Virus record (IMG/VR): IMGVR_UViG_3300022223_000030 | Coordinates: 1 to 20,087 of that record | Reading direction: 5' to 3' (one strand) | DNA from: a virus | Length of the DNA stretch: 20,087 bases | Shown here: positions 5,193-19,542 of the stretch, piece after piece | Numbering within the stretch: the stretch's first letter is position 1 | How the letters are laid out: the number at the start of each line of letters is the position of its first letter | Made by a program: the position numbers and the translations under genes | Notes under the pieces: generated by a model | What the model saw: only the letters and a program-made list of their open reading frames with translations | Databases searched by the model: none | Told to the model about the DNA's origin: nothing

Positions 5193-5669
5193 ATGACCAC
5201 CGCGAATGTCGTTTTCTCGGGCCCGGCGGACAAGGTTCGCCCGATTACCCGGGACGCCCCGATCAAGACGGGCGAAACCATCCTCCCCGGCCACCTCGTC
5301 GCGCTTGACAGCAACGGCGAATGGGTTGGGGTAACCACGCAGGGCGGGGCCATCGGCTTCTGCATCGCTGACATGAACGTCATCGAGCAGAAATCGGCAA
5401 CCGAGGCCCTGACTGCTGGCGACAACGCCAAGGCCTTCGTGCCGGAAGTGGGCTGCACCTACAATCTGGTCCTTGCCACATCCCAGACCATCGTGAAGGG
5501 TGACGCGATCACCTCTTCAGCGACGGCGGGGCTGGTTGAAAAGGCCACCACCACTGGCGCGACCGTCGATGAAGTCCTCTTCATCGCGGAAGAAGCCGTA
5601 ACCACCACCGGTGCCACCGCCCGCATTCGTGTTCGTCACGTTGCTTCGGGCGTTGCCGCAACCGCGTAA
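5193..5669 (+). CDS. Capsid decoration / structural cement protein
   Basis: Small beta-rich protein of 158 residues immediately before the major capsid gene, the usual position of cement or decoration proteins that stabilise the expanded shell. The chain is rich in Thr, Val, Ala and Gly with alternating strand patterns ('ILPGHLVALDSNGEWVGV', 'TTTGATARIRVRHV') and no predicted helices or membrane segments. It resembles the gp24-like structural cement proteins in style, but this is by pattern and position rather than a diagnostic motif. AAGGAGG lies 8 bases before ATG 5193, predicting strong expression to match capsid protein. Only 3 bases separate it from the preceding stop. Confidence 0.75.
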   Translation: MTTANVVFSGPADKVRPITRDAPIKTGETILPGHLVALDSNGEWVGVTTQGGAIGFCIADMNVIEQKSATEALTAGDNAKAFVPEVGCTYNLVLATSQTIVKGDAITSSATAGLVEKATTTGATVDEVLFIAEEAVTTTGATARIRVRHVASGVAATA

Positions 5670-5682
5670 GGAGGCATTCACA

Positions 5683-6744
5683 ATGCTTTACTTCGATCCC
5701 GCCTTCGCCACGAACACCCGTTCTGGCGAGGCTCACCGCGAGCAAGCGGCGCACGTTGCGAGCAGACGCGCTCACTTTGCCTCGCACAATGCGCAGTTCC
5801 TGGGCGCAAACGGGCTGTTCCGGGCGGCCAACGCTTCCGCGATCATCCCGCAAGATGTGTACCGCGAGTTCGAGTCTCAAACCAAGGAACTCATGCGTGC
5901 GCCAAACCTTACCCTTCTGGGCGACCTTATGCCTCTGGCAAAGGGCCTTCCTGTGGGCAAGGTGGAACACGTCTATCGCAAGGCTTCGGACAGCGGCGTT
6001 GTCGTGACCGACCTTGAGGGTTCTTCGCCGGTCGAACTCGACAAAGCCGACTACATCTATGATTCGACCATCAAGGTTGTCCACCGAGCGGGCTTCGGTC
6101 GTTCGTGGATGGAAATGGAAGGTCAGCGTTCGGAAGGCTTTGACGGGCTGGTCGATGACCAGGCCAACTCTGTGCGGAAGATGCAGGAAATGATCGCGTC
6201 GCACATCTACAACGGCGCGGACGTGACGTTCAAGGGCACGGCGGCGGTTGGCATCAAGAACTCAAGCCGGGTTGCCTCGGTGGACCTTGACGCTTCCGGC
6301 CTTAACATCGACTTCACGTCCAGCGCTGCCACGGCGGCGAATATCCGCTCCGCGTGGATTTCGCTGGTGGACACGCTCAAGATCACCAACAACGTCGGGC
6401 AGAACATTACGTTCTACGTGTCGCGGGAGATCATGAGCAACTTCCAGCGCTATTTCAGCACTTCCGACGTGGGCTTCGGCACGATCCTTCAATCCCTGCT
6501 GAACCTGAACGCTGTGGCAGCGATCAAGGAGGACGCGCAACTTTCCGGTAACGAGGTGATCGGCCTCGTTCTGGACGCGCAGTTCATCCGGCCCTTGGTC
6601 GGCATGGCTGTAACCACTGTCCCGCTGACCAGGTCGAACCCGTTCGACAATTACAACTTCATCACCTGGGCCAACGTGGGCCTTGAGATCAAGACGGACT
6701 ACAGCGGCCGCACTGGCGTGCTGTACGCCCGCGAGATCGCGTGA
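5683..6744 (+). CDS. Major capsid protein
   Basis: Main shell protein, 353 residues. The N-terminal arm is followed by the family pattern 'VYREFESQTKELMR.PN..LLGDLMPLAKGLPVGK', then 'EHVYRKASDSGVVVTDLEG', a central helical spine, and a C-terminal 'YNFITWANVGLEIKTDYSGRTGVLY'. This is a major capsid family common in proteobacterial siphophages and presumed to have the HK97 fold; I do not claim the Pfam number. The start is ATG 5683, which has AAGGAGG 8 bases upstream; a GTG further upstream (5611) would overlap the cement gene for no reason. A strong hairpin follows the stop. There is no long basic delta-domain, consistent with scaffold being supplied by the upstream DUF2213 gene. Confidence 0.92.
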   Translation: MLYFDPAFATNTRSGEAHREQAAHVASRRAHFASHNAQFLGANGLFRAANASAIIPQDVYREFESQTKELMRAPNLTLLGDLMPLAKGLPVGKVEHVYRKASDSGVVVTDLEGSSPVELDKADYIYDSTIKVVHRAGFGRSWMEMEGQRSEGFDGLVDDQANSVRKMQEMIASHIYNGADVTFKGTAAVGIKNSSRVASVDLDASGLNIDFTSSAATAANIRSAWISLVDTLKITNNVGQNITFYVSREIMSNFQRYFSTSDVGFGTILQSLLNLNAVAAIKEDAQLSGNEVIGLVLDAQFIRPLVGMAVTTVPLTRSNPFDNYNFITWANVGLEIKTDYSGRTGVLYAREIA

Positions 6745-8667: not shown

Positions 8668-9078
8668 ATGGCGGCAGCAGCAGGGCGGGCAATCCGCATT
8701 GCCTTTGATGCGGACGGGGCTGGGGCTGGCGCGGCGATTGCCATCGTCGGGTCCACCAAAGACAATTTCGAGATCACCAAGGAAGGCATCAACGTCACCG
8801 ACAAGGACGATGCTGGTGTGCAGACGTTCATCGATGATGTGGTCGGGACATGGGCAATGAGCGGGGGTGTCGATGGCTTCTTGAAGGACACAACGATCCT
8901 CGCCCTTATGAACGACACGAGCCAGTTCACTCACACGATGGAAGTGGCGGTTGCCGGGCTTGGTACGTACCGTGGCTTGTTCGCCATCACCAACTTCAAG
9001 GTTGATGGCCCTGAAGGGGCGGAAGCTGCAACTTTCTCGTTCCAGATTACTTCGTCTGGCACAATCACGTTCACCTGA
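8668..9078 (+). CDS. Major tail tube protein
   Basis: 136 residues, the subunit that stacks in rings to form the tail tube. 'AIAIVGSTKDNFEITKEGINVTDKDDAG' and 'TWAMSGGVDGFLKD' followed by 'TMEVAVAGLGTYRGLFAITNFKVDGPEGAEAATFSFQITSSGTITFT' match the short TP901-1-type major tail protein pattern seen in many proteobacterial phages (Phage_tail_2-like). AAAGGAGG with a 7-base spacer precedes ATG 8668, one of the strongest sites in the window, as suits the second most abundant structural protein. It is followed by the chaperone genes. Confidence 0.9.
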   Translation: MAAAAGRAIRIAFDADGAGAGAAIAIVGSTKDNFEITKEGINVTDKDDAGVQTFIDDVVGTWAMSGGVDGFLKDTTILALMNDTSQFTHTMEVAVAGLGTYRGLFAITNFKVDGPEGAEAATFSFQITSSGTITFT

Positions 9079-9089
9079 GGGGGTAAAGC

Positions 9090-9488
9090 ATGAGCGTTTC
9101 GCGCGAGATGACAATGGAGTATGCCGGGGAGACGTACCGTTTCGACTTCTCCAACAAACTCCTTCGTCGCATTGATGCAGGATTGGCCCCGCAGACGTTT
9201 TTCGGCGTTCTCGGTGTCATTGATGGAAGGGAGGCCCCACTTCCGGCGCTCGCCTTCATTATCTCCGAGATGCTCAAGGAGGGCGGTGGCGAGTTTACGG
9301 AAGACGATGTGATCGAAGAGCTATACGATGACATCCGAACCAACAAGGGCAACGGTATCCGCCCGCTTGTTGAGGCGATTGTCGCGTGCGTCTCCATGCC
9401 GGGGCAAGCCCGGGGAAACTCCCCGGCCCCGGCTCAGGGGCCAAAGAAGGCAAAGGCCAAGGCCAAGAGGGCCACACCCAGGCCATAG
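9090..9488 (+). CDS. Tail assembly chaperone, zero-frame product (gpG-like)
   Basis: 132-residue zero-frame product between tube and tape-measure genes, where gpG-type chaperones that coat the tape measure are made. The N-terminal 90 residues are the folded part ('YAGETYRFDFSNKLLRRIDAGL', 'LPALAFIISEMLKEGG', 'IRPLVEAIVACV'). The tail after the slip site is low-complexity and very basic ('KKAKAKAKR'). GAGGGGG lies 6 bases before ATG 9090. This form is expected when the ribosome does not shift frame at 9413-9419. Confidence 0.88.
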   Translation: MSVSREMTMEYAGETYRFDFSNKLLRRIDAGLAPQTFFGVLGVIDGREAPLPALAFIISEMLKEGGGEFTEDDVIEELYDDIRTNKGNGIRPLVEAIVACVSMPGQARGNSPAPAQGPKKAKAKAKRATPRP

Positions 9489-9694
9489 ACTGGAACAGCA
9501 TGTATCTTGCCGCCCGGGCGTGGGGGGTGCAGCCCAGCGAGTTCTGGTCCATGAGCTTTGGCGAATGGCTGCTGGAAGCGCATCACCAATGGCTTGAGTC
9601 CGAAGATGGCAGGCTCTGGCAGAAAAAGCAGGTTTGGATGGAAGATGCGGACCTGACCCGGGAAGAGTGGAGAGCCAAATATGGCCTTGCCTAA
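9090..9694 (+). CDS. Frameshifted tail assembly chaperone (gpGT-like)
   Basis: A 201-residue fusion made by a -1 shift: zero frame 9090-9419, then re-reading base 9419 and continuing in the -1 frame to the stop at 9692-9694. The -1 frame has no credible start of its own but encodes a folded domain ('IDWNSMYLAARAWGVQPSEFW.MSFGEWLLE', 'LTREEWRAKYGLA') with the pattern of the second chaperone half, in which a helix pair ends in P-x-E-F-W. In lambda the equivalent GT extension recruits tube subunits. The stop overlaps the tape measure start by 14 bases. The shift itself is inferred from the signal and frame layout. Confidence 0.85.
9413..9442 (+). promoter_or_regulatory. Programmed -1 ribosomal frameshift signal
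   Basis: Slippery heptamer GGGAAAC at 9413-9419 in the correct phase (G GGA AAC), a 5-base spacer, then a perfect 6-bp all-G/C hairpin GGCCCC (9425-9430), loop GGCTCA, GGGGCC (9437-9442). Lambda uses GGGAAAG at the same place between G and T. Confidence 0.88.
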
Positions 9695-11345
9695 AATCAG
9701 TCTGGATATTGACGCGGATGTTGGCGGGGCCCTTGATGGCATTGAGAGGGTGCAGGGCAAACTTGATGGGTTGGCCAGAGAAGGGACCCGGACCGGGGCG
9801 GCGATGGGGAAGTCCAGCGCCTTTGGGCGTGGCATCCAGAATGCCTCATACCAGCTTGGCGACTTCGCCACGCAGGTTGGGGCTGGTACAAACGCCAGCA
9901 TCGCCCTGGGACAGCAGCTTCCGCAGTTGCTTGGCGGATTCGGCATTCTCGGGGCCGTTCTTGGCGCGGTCGTTGCGATTGGTGTTCCGCTTGCCCGAAC
10001 GCTAAAGACCATGAGCGACAACGGCACCGAGCTTAGCGGTGTTCTGGGTACGATGCAGCCGCTCGCGGAAAGCATGGCGCGGGCGTTTGGGTCCATGCGA
10101 GACGCCGGTATCCAGATGGCAGAATCCATCATAAACAACATGGATCGGATCATCTCCATTGCCCTTGTTGCTGCTTCTGTGTTCGGCGTTCGAATGGTGG
10201 CTGGTTTTGTGGCTGCCCGTGTGGCGACGTTTTCGCTTGCCGCCAGCATGACTTTTCTTCGAGGTGCATTGATCCGCACAGGGATAGGCGCCCTTGTCGT
10301 CGGGGCGGGGGAACTCGTCTATCAGTTCAGCAGGCTGGTGCAGGCCGCGGGCGGTTTCGGGGCGGCACTCGTGGTCCTGAAGGACATCGCGATGGAGACC
10401 TTTGAGCGCATCGGAGCATACATCACGATCCTTTCGACGAACTTCCAACTTCTCATCAACGACATGCAATATGCGTGGGTCATCGGCCTCGGAAACATGA
10501 AGACGAAGTTTGGCGAATTCATGGACGGCATCGCGGCGATCGCCCCAGAGTTCATGAACTTTGAAGGCGGAAACGCTGAGGAAGCGGCGAAGGCGCAGGT
10601 TGACGCCATGGCTGCGCTCAATGATTCGTTGTTTGACATTCTCGCGGAGCAGAGTGCCGCCAGTGATCTTCTGGCTCAGCCGTTGGAGAGCATCCAGACG
10701 CTGAAGGACCTGCTGGCGTCCATCAAGGAAGAGGGGCTGGACCTGCCAAGCCTGTTGTCTGGCGATAGCGGCGGCGGAGAGGGCGGCGGCGGCGGCGGGG
10801 AGGGCGGAGACAAGAAGTCCGCATGGGAACGCGCCATTGAGGCCATTGAAAAGGTCAGGCAGGCATACGAGGGCCTCAGGTCTGCTCAAAGGTCTGTCTG
10901 GACTGAGGCCGCGAACCTGATCCAGATGTTTGCCGGGAAATCCAAGGTGGCAGCGCTTGCCGCTCTTGCGATCCAGAAGGGGCTTTCCATCGCTCAAATC
11001 TTTGCCAACTCGGCTGCGGCACAACTTCGTGCTCTGGCTGAACTGGGTGTGGTAGCAGGCACGCCTGTGGCGGCCAAGATTGCGGCGTATGGCAAGATAC
11101 AGGCAGCACTTGTGGCGGCGCAGGGCCTCGCGCAGGCCGGGGGGATCGGCGGCGGCAGTGGCCCAAACCTTGGTGGCGGTGGCGGCGGCGGCGGCGGGTC
11201 AATCGAGACCCAAGACAGTGCGCGATCAATGCAGATGCGGTCGTTGACAATCATTGGCGATCGGTTCAATCGCGCCCAAGCCATCCAGATTGCCGAGTTC
11301 ATGAACGAAGGCACTGACGATGGCCTTGTGGTCAGGGGGCGCTAG
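9681..11345 (+). CDS. Tail length tape measure protein
   Basis: Extended helical protein that sets tail length and is ejected before DNA. The 554 residues begin 'MALPKISLDIDADVGGAL', a common tape-measure N-terminus, followed by long Ala-rich helices. Two hydrophobic stretches (about 83-105 and 157-190) could insert in the host membrane during DNA entry. Glycine-rich linkers (about 362-378 and 486-505) separate the C-terminal helical and Ala-rich segment. The C-terminus 'ARSMQMRSLTIIGD' then 'FNRAQAIQIAEFMNEG' resembles other small proteobacterial siphophage tape measures. At roughly 1.5 angstrom per residue (the lambda rule) the tail would be near 80 nm. GGAGAG lies 6 bases before ATG 9681. 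Confidence 0.9.
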   Translation: MALPKISLDIDADVGGALDGIERVQGKLDGLAREGTRTGAAMGKSSAFGRGIQNASYQLGDFATQVGAGTNASIALGQQLPQLLGGFGILGAVLGAVVAIGVPLARTLKTMSDNGTELSGVLGTMQPLAESMARAFGSMRDAGIQMAESIINNMDRIISIALVAASVFGVRMVAGFVAARVATFSLAASMTFLRGALIRTGIGALVVGAGELVYQFSRLVQAAGGFGAALVVLKDIAMETFERIGAYITILSTNFQLLINDMQYAWVIGLGNMKTKFGEFMDGIAAIAPEFMNFEGGNAEEAAKAQVDAMAALNDSLFDILAEQSAASDLLAQPLESIQTLKDLLASIKEEGLDLPSLLSGDSGGGEGGGGGGEGGDKKSAWERAIEAIEKVRQAYEGLRSAQRSVWTEAANLIQMFAGKSKVAALAALAIQKGLSIAQIFANSAAAQLRALAELGVVAGTPVAAKIAAYGKIQAALVAAQGLAQAGGIGGGSGPNLGGGGGGGGGSIETQDSARSMQMRSLTIIGDRFNRAQAIQIAEFMNEGTDDGLVVRGR

Positions 11346-17436: not shown

Positions 17437-18137
17437 GCGCAGCCAGCTTCCCCGTGGCGATGAAATACCTTGCCGAATACGAAGGCGGGTACGTGAACGA
17501 CCCCCACGACCCTGGCGGGGCTACCAATCGAGGTATCACGCAGAAGACCTACGACGCCAGCCGCCGGAGCAAGGGCCTTCCCCTTCGCCATGTCACGATG
17601 CTGACCGACGCCGAACACGACGCGATCTATGCTGAGCAGTACTGGGAGCGCGTGCGAGGCGACTTCCTGCCGCCGGGTGTTGATCTGGCGGTGTTTGACT
17701 TCGCGGTCAACAGTGGTGTTCGCCGCGCGTCCGAGTATCTGCAACGGATCGTGGGGGCCAAACCCGATGGGTATATCGGCTTCATCACAGCCGAGGCTGT
17801 CTGGGCATACACCAATCGTCATGGTGTTGAGCGCCTGATCACCGAATACTGCGCGGCTCGTGAGCGGTTTTTGCGCGGCCTGCCCACTTTTTGGAGGTTC
17901 GGCAAGGGCTGGATCAGGCGCGTGGTCGGCAAGACGCCAGGTGCCCAGCCTGGGGCGGATATGGGTGTCCTGGATCTGGCCATTGCCCTGCACCGCGATA
18001 GTTCAGGCTTCCTCCCGAGCGGAATACCCCGCCCCGTCGCGCCCAAGGCGGGCAGGGCGACCAAGGACGCAGCACCCCCAAACGGCCTGGCTGGCCTTCT
18101 GGGGTCAATTCTGGCAGCATTCAGGAGGAAAGCATGA
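17433..18137 (+). CDS. Endolysin, glycoside hydrolase family 108
   Basis: 234-residue peptidoglycan hydrolase expected to cut the glycan strands at the end of infection. The N-terminal GH108 signature is 'LAEYEGGYVNDPHDPGGATNRGIT', with the glutamate of EGGY (E17) the catalytic candidate. A second half ('DLAVFDFAVNSGVRRASEYLQ' to 'GLPTFWRFGKGWIRRV') matches the peptidoglycan-binding part that usually follows. There is no N-terminal signal peptide, so release should need a holin. Unusually, the C-terminus adds a Pro/Ala linker and a short hydrophobic-basic end ('NGLAGLLGSILAAFRRKA'). ATG 17433 has AGGAAAGG just upstream. The stop overlaps the following holin-like gene. Confidence 0.93.
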   Translation: MSAASFPVAMKYLAEYEGGYVNDPHDPGGATNRGITQKTYDASRRSKGLPLRHVTMLTDAEHDAIYAEQYWERVRGDFLPPGVDLAVFDFAVNSGVRRASEYLQRIVGAKPDGYIGFITAEAVWAYTNRHGVERLITEYCAARERFLRGLPTFWRFGKGWIRRVVGKTPGAQPGADMGVLDLAIALHRDSSGFLPSGIPRPVAPKAGRATKDAAPPNGLAGLLGSILAAFRRKA

Positions 18138-18346
18138 GCACGCAGCATAAGGCATGGTCTCGGTCCAGGACAATCTGGTTTGGGGTCGGCACCGGGCTTG
18201 CCAGCACGGGCAGCGAGTTGATGTTCATGGCTGATCTGCTGCCCGAGGCGTGGCAGATTCCCGTTCGCATCGGGCTGGGTGTCATCACCGCCATTGGCAT
18301 CGTCATCCTTCGCGTTATCACCGACAGCCCCATAGGCGCGAGATGA
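18134..18346 (+). CDS. Holin-like small membrane protein
   Basis: 70 residues: basic N-terminus 'STQHKAWSRSRTIWFGVGT', a weak first hydrophobic helix, 'LLPEAWQIPVRIGLGVITAIGIVILRVITDSPIG' containing a clear second helix, then a polar end. The pattern S-R-T-x-W ... L-P ... LR-x-x-T-x-x-P-I recurs in small phage membrane proteins next to endolysins, often labelled holins. Its immediate position after the endolysin and a perfect AGGAGGAA site 3 bases before ATG 18134 (ATGA overlap) support this. Three other membrane proteins upstream of the endolysin are competing holin candidates. Confidence 0.72.
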   Translation: MSTQHKAWSRSRTIWFGVGTGLASTGSELMFMADLLPEAWQIPVRIGLGVITAIGIVILRVITDSPIGAR

Positions 18347-19124: not shown

Positions 19125-19475
19125 CTAAAGCCAAATATCCGGCCCATTGGCAGCCTCAATCAGCCAATCCGCATGGCATGGCTCGCCGGGTTTGCACCAG
19201 CAGCACAAATCGCGCCCGCGCAATTCGTCCTCGATCAGACGCAGATTGAAGATGCTGATCTCGTAATCCAGCAGCTTCGTTTCATTCACCGGCGGCCCGT
19301 TGTGGGTGTATGGGTTCATCATCCTGGCATATAGCCGGACGGCGGTTGCCGCGTCGGGAACGCCGGGATCGCCCACGCGATAGGGGTTTCCCCACCGGGT
19401 GCCGCGCGTCACCACAACGGCCCCAGCCGGTTTGCGCCAACCTTTTGCGCGCCGAAGTTGAATGCGTTCAGGCAT
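19125..19475 (-). CDS. DUF4326 family protein
   Basis: 116 residues matching DUF4326: 'QLRRAKGWRKPAGAVVVTRG..WGNPYRVG' (GNP at residues 29-31), a helix 'AVRLYARMM', and the signature end 'LRGRDLCCWCKPGEPCHADWLIEAA' with C91, C92, C94, C100 and H101. The family is common in phages and its biochemical role is not established as far as I know; the CWC...CH motif suggests metal binding or catalysis. I chose ATG 19475 because AAAGGA lies 6 bases upstream (reading the minus strand). The earlier in-frame ATG (19490) lies 1 base before that motif, so it would add only MKGSS. Transcribed opposite to the structural genes. Confidence 0.88.
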   Translation of the reverse strand: MPERIQLRRAKGWRKPAGAVVVTRGTRWGNPYRVGDPGVPDAATAVRLYARMMNPYTHNGPPVNETKLLDYEISIFNLRLIEDELRGRDLCCWCKPGEPCHADWLIEAANGPDIWL

Positions 19476-19542
19476 CGACGATCCTTTCATGTTCTATAGC
19501 GGCGGCAAACATGTCCATCTGGTGCGGTCGCTCAGTCTTCAC
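19468..19542 (-). CDS. Possible micro-ORF before DUF4326 gene
   Basis: A 24-residue frame (GTG 19542, stop 19468-19470) reading 'KTERPHQMDMFAAAIEHERI' with a GGAAG upstream. Its stop overlaps the DUF4326 start by 8 bases, which could give coupling. The composition is protein-like and the 'Q.DMF' ending recalls C-termini of small phage proteins, but the ORF is very short. In the same frame the open sequence extends upstream to the stop of the cysteine-rich gene without a good start. It could be a true micro-gene or the remains of a longer one. Confidence 0.3.
   Translation of the reverse strand: MKTERPHQMDMFAAAIEHERIVDA

Follow-up and report, generated by a model that had tools for sequence, protein, structure and literature searches.

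Comparative support for a lambda-like -1 frameshift between two tail assembly chaperone frames in a family of uncultured phages

Introduction

The closest functional model for the locus studied here is the lambda G/GT system (Levin 1993; Xu, Hendrix and Duda 2004, as cited in PMC5009743). According to a review, lambda G attaches to the tape measure protein and GT, the less abundant product, contacts the tail tube protein through its T part; the G:GT ratio of 30:1 is crucial (PMC5009743). The g-t site of the haloarchaeal virus HCTV-1 is reported as G GGA AAC (PMC5009743), two chaperone genes of HK97-like phages shifted at 6% and 7% in a published experiment (PMC3711429), and the usual chaperone programmed frameshift is reported to be present in most Rhodobacter capsulatus phages of one collection (PMC8601537). 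The frameshift genes of the SEA-PHAGES collection are nearly all tail assembly chaperones (PMC10885494).

The DNA analyzed here, referred to as the window, is a virus record of 20,087 bases (IMGVR_UViG_3300022223_000030, positions 1 to 20,087). For its two chaperone frames, we computed the slippery heptamer and its phase, the hairpin, the open -1 frame, the homology of both parts, the gene order, and the conservation in relatives.

Gene order in the window

The window holds the head and tail module of a tailed phage, composed of terminase, portal, a DUF6260 virion protein, tail terminator, tail tube, two chaperone frames, and tape measure. The DUF6260 protein (5611-6744; 8.8e-95) also matches phrog_771, a virion structural protein; Pfam states no function for the domain, and the product is the probable major capsid protein. 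A DUF4326 gene (1.2e-19) is located at the right end on the minus strand (19125-19490), in the orientation opposite to the structural genes. At the site itself, the order is tail tube - G - T - tape measure. As in the lambda G/GT kind, two overlapping frames, the second in -1, are thus placed between the tail tube and tape measure genes. The features are as follows.

8668..9078, plus strand: tail tube protein, adjoining G upstream (Phage_tail_2 5e-9; phrog_1407)
9090..9488, plus strand: G, 132-aa tail assembly chaperone in the 0 frame, Phage_TAC_11 / GTA-gp10-like (ORF; homologue, profile and fold matches)
9413..9419, plus strand: slippery heptamer GGGAAAC, read G GGA AAC in G (phase; heptamer excess in relatives)
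9420..9424, plus strand: spacer of 5 nt, TCCCC
9425..9442, plus strand: hairpin GGCCCC-GGCTCA-GGGGCC with a perfect 6-bp stem and a 6-nt loop, candidate stimulator (-15.0 kcal/mol)
9419..9694, plus strand: T, 91-aa -1 frame extension, coordinates including the stop, Phage_TAC_6-like (homologue matches; predicted helical core)
9681..11345, plus strand: tape measure protein, downstream of G and overlapping T (phrog_1538 6.3e-12)

Predicted slip site, hairpin, and reading frames

The original prediction placed GGGAAAC in slippery phase, 5 nt upstream of a perfect G/C hairpin of 6 bp, and this arrangement was confirmed at 9413-9442. It further held the -1 frame to be open up to the start of the tape measure gene. 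The frame is indeed open, from 9374 to 9691, but it does not end there: its stop (9692-9694) lies past the ATG at 9681, resulting in a 14-nt overlap. ORF arithmetic bears out the two predicted products, i.e., a G protein of 132 aa and a G-T fusion of 201 aa (110 residues before and 91 after the shift).

An in-phase slippery heptamer in the G/T overlap is a further trait of the lambda G/GT kind. Taken alone, however, the heptamer is weak evidence and only mildly unusual, as any in-phase heptamer arises in the overlap in 14.6% of codon-shuffle trials (p = 0.146). GGGAAAC occurs four times in the window against 2.65 expected. The hairpin is rarer, with 0.15% of the window's 26-mers folding as strongly. 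In-phase XXXYYYZ heptamers are found at six sites in the 23 window genes, the one at 9413 being followed by the strongest hairpin, and solely at 9413 and 18077 does the -1 frame run well past the gene end. The latter site (CCCAAAC, 18077-18083), likewise in phase, is located close to the end of the Glyco_hydro_108 endolysin gene and has a weak hairpin. From it, the -1 frame stays open over 89 codons and extends into the following ORF (18134-18346), an ORF with its own ATG; the heptamer there is probably due to chance. A mini-hairpin, GGGGA-AAC-UCCCC, takes in the slip site at 9413 itself; it was not counted as evidence because a ribosome reading the site would melt it. Transcriptional slippage was rejected for the window, where the runs consist of four G followed by three A.

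Protein families and folds

Compared with Pfam, window G alone gave no match. Among its homologues, six of 13 matched Phage_TAC_11 (PF11836, GTA-gp10; best 5.1e-11), and the G family profile matched a TAC_11-type protein of a Microvirga genome (E=4.7e-9). Window T alone reached 15.3 bits against Phage_TAC_6 (E=0.027), below the cut-off of 23.4; 12 of its 13 homologues matched this family (PF09550, best 1.7e-12), which assigns T to it. The AlphaFold model of G is composed of two strands and five helices (pLDDT 83.9), and its predicted viral fold matches include proteins named tail assembly chaperone; the model of T has a confident helical core at residues 21-60. Fold searches of both models against the PDB returned no significant match.

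Relatives were sought by several routes. A tblastn search with window G and T and the T domains of three relatives against 50,697 cultured-phage records yielded nothing, a distant blastn search gave only a 23-nt match due to chance, and no relative was found when viral contigs were searched with G alone. A DNA pattern for QPSEFWSM had four matches in bacterial genomes, all of which lacked the chaperone pair and were discarded.

Conservation of frame and heptamer among relatives

Loci were gathered by the T domain alone, such that frame and heptamer were unselected. In each collected locus, the G and T profiles located one G and one T, and after removal of near-duplicates the set comprised 64 viral loci, including the window. 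These loci are related to one another in varying degree, and hence the following counts are not fully independent.

In 63 of the 64 loci, T lies in -1 relative to G. The single exception is L105 (1460-1470), where T is in +1 at an A9 run; transcriptional slippage, a +1/-2 shift, or a homopolymer assembly error may account for it. For relatives with A9 runs, e.g., L104 and L105, transcriptional slippage is possible. Among the 63 loci in -1, 39 carry an in-phase XXXYYYZ heptamer (Y = A or T), compared with 5.3 +/- 2.0 expected and with nine in each of the two other phases. Over all 64 loci, the heptamers are GGGAAAC (14), AAAAAAA (8), AAAAAAG (5), AAAAAAC (4), GGGAAAG (4), AAAAAAT (3), CCCAAAA (2), CCCAAAG (2), and AAAGGGA (1), and they are located 7-94 nt upstream of the G stop. 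The frame relation is thus conserved in all loci but one, while the canonical heptamer is found in 39 of the 63 and varies in type and position. Such variation argues against simple inheritance of the sites. The T domain is conserved across loci. From its opening to the QPSEFW motif, the T frame contains no ATG, GTG, or TTG in 40 of 63 loci, and no ATG in 55 of 63.

Folding downstream of canonical heptamers is only mildly enriched in the relatives (mean z -1.07, 55% below -1, mononucleotide shuffles); therefore, the heptamer is not always accompanied by a hairpin. The window has no close relative with which its own hairpin could be compared by covariation.

With frame relation and signal conserved among relatives, the locus agrees with the lambda G/GT kind in this respect as well. 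The -1 relation, the excess of in-phase heptamers, and the missing starts would together be hard to explain without frameshifting. A lambda-like -1 programmed frameshift, as originally predicted, is strongly supported by this comparison, because the frame is conserved in 63 of 64 loci along with the heptamer excess, and because many relatives have a T without a start, both parts match chaperone families through their homologues, and the gene order fits. The strong support for the frameshift in the window is thus comparative, drawn from the relatives rather than from its heptamer. The signal itself is real and well conserved; it belongs to a known kind and occurs here in chaperones of a family found in uncultured phages.

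A likely substitute slip site

The original prediction named relatives that keep both frames while the heptamer is destroyed as evidence against it. In form, 24 loci are of this type, as they contain no XXXYYYZ heptamer. GGGGGAG is found in 21 of them, GGGGGAA in two, and GGAAAAG in L044. The 23 loci with GGGGGAG/A (L038, L039, L042, L043, L045, L047, L051, L052, L054-L059, L061, L063, L064, L066, L068, L072, L076, L081, and L086) carry it immediately upstream of the G stop, a position occupied by GGGAAAC or GGGAAAG in sister loci, and share a conserved stem of at least 8 bp starting 6 nt past the heptamer.

This stem was assessed with eight pairs in 29 aligned loci, six of which have canonical heptamers. 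Pairing is realized in 88.4% of cells, compared with 79.2% in shuffles and 32-47% in slid versions. Cells changed on both sides number 20 versus 7.8, and the covariation score is 0.275 versus 0.128, neither value being reached in any of 500 shuffles. The shuffles take no account of relatedness, and the stem is located within T coding sequence.

We conclude that GGGGGAG/A is likely a non-canonical -1 slip site, and these relatives appear to have retained the frameshift mechanism by using a different slip site. Re-pairing on GGGGGAG would be cognate in the P-site and only G-U-assisted in the A-site. The same G-U explanation has been given for GGGGGAA, a motif described as 'fivetwo' that occurs a thousand times among the SEA-PHAGES frameshift genes (PMC10885494). 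A literature text search combining GGGGGAG, frameshift, and phage found no relevant paper.

Alternative explanations

The main rival for the window is that T is a separate gene, started at GTG 9386 or ATG 9500 by translational coupling, with no fusion made. The original prediction denied T any credible start, which goes beyond the facts: Shine-Dalgarno pairing at GTG 9386 is moderate (-6.0 kcal/mol, similar to the -6.4 of the tape-measure gene). Pairing at ATG 9500 is weak (-3.3 kcal/mol), and a start there would truncate the first of the predicted T helices. Within the TAC_11/TAC_6 family, separate initiation of T is, by all appearances, a real alternative. T matches were found in 12 of 199 genomes from the order of the Microvirga genome with the TAC_11-type protein, and GTA-like TAC_11/TAC_6 pairs of bacterial genomes are L112, L114, L116, L118, L120, L123, and L124. 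Own T starts are seen in three of these: L120 has its T start in an ATGA overlap, and in L114 and L118 T follows the G stop without a change of frame and has possible starts of its own. For the window, the comparative data speak against this rival, which explains neither the constant -1 offset of T nor the heptamers in phase; moreover, 40 of 63 relatives offer no start codon in T ahead of the motif. We consider it unlikely, with a small chance of being correct.

The overlap is GC-rich, and an in-phase heptamer and a GC hairpin could also coincide there by chance; T would then be unexpressed, or a sequencing error would have broken its frame. Heptamers alone are common enough to allow this (p about 0.15), and indels are possible in metagenome assemblies. 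Against this explanation stand the same split at 63 of the 64 loci, whose heptamers differ, and a T domain conserved across them. The survey of relatives largely refutes this explanation, to which we give even less credit than to separate initiation.

Programmed frameshifting in the window is consequently the reading we hold with high confidence. Ribosomes would slip by -1 at G GGA AAC, aided by the hairpin that starts 5 nt downstream of the heptamer, and would thereby produce a 201-aa G-T fusion as the minor product alongside the 132-aa G chaperone. We infer this shift and its efficiency, as well as the roles of both proteins, which gene order and family suggest to be like those in lambda. 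By analogy, G would form a coat on the tape measure protein, the few fusion molecules would recruit the tail tube protein by way of their T domain, and the G:GT ratio would set correct tail assembly.

Regarding the family as a whole, we lean slightly towards a TAC_11/TAC_6 join that was rebuilt repeatedly in uncultured phages and GTAs, by heptamers of varied type and position, by GGGGGAG or GGGGGAA with a covarying 8-bp stem in one group, or, in some GTA-like loci, by separate initiation.

Comparison with known systems

These findings would extend the lambda-type tail-chaperone frameshift to uncultured phages with GTA-type chaperones, with the frame relation kept while the slip site itself turns over. 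Annotation pipelines would probably miss the G-T fusion, and its prediction is of moderate value as an annotation correction. The relatives furthermore constitute a comparative set for studying which slip sites work (GGGAAAC versus GGGGGAG) and why some GTA-like loci start T separately.

The window shares with lambda G/GT the gene order, the -1 frame, an in-phase GGGAAAR/C-type heptamer near the end of G, and a T frame that overlaps the start of the tape measure gene. Lambda has GGGAAAG where the window has GGGAAAC, at the same place as originally predicted. No similarity between the proteins was detected at the level of profiles, again as predicted: lambda G and T did not match the profiles of this family (hhalign probability 1.0% and 0.1%). 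The pair would thus work like lambda G/GT without detectable homology. HK97 gp13/gp14 is alike in that its record annotates a -1 joined tail protein, and unlike in that gp13 gave no match to the profile of this family. As controls, GGGAAAG of lambda and GGGAAAA of HK97 were both in phase by the same arithmetic. HCTV-1 has the same heptamer as the window, by its published description only (PMC5009743). With the GTA g10-type pair (Phage_TAC_11 / Phage_TAC_6), both proteins appear homologous by profile comparison; while other GTA-like loci use separate starts, L123 and L124 likewise have T in -1, with GGGAAAG immediately upstream of the G stop.
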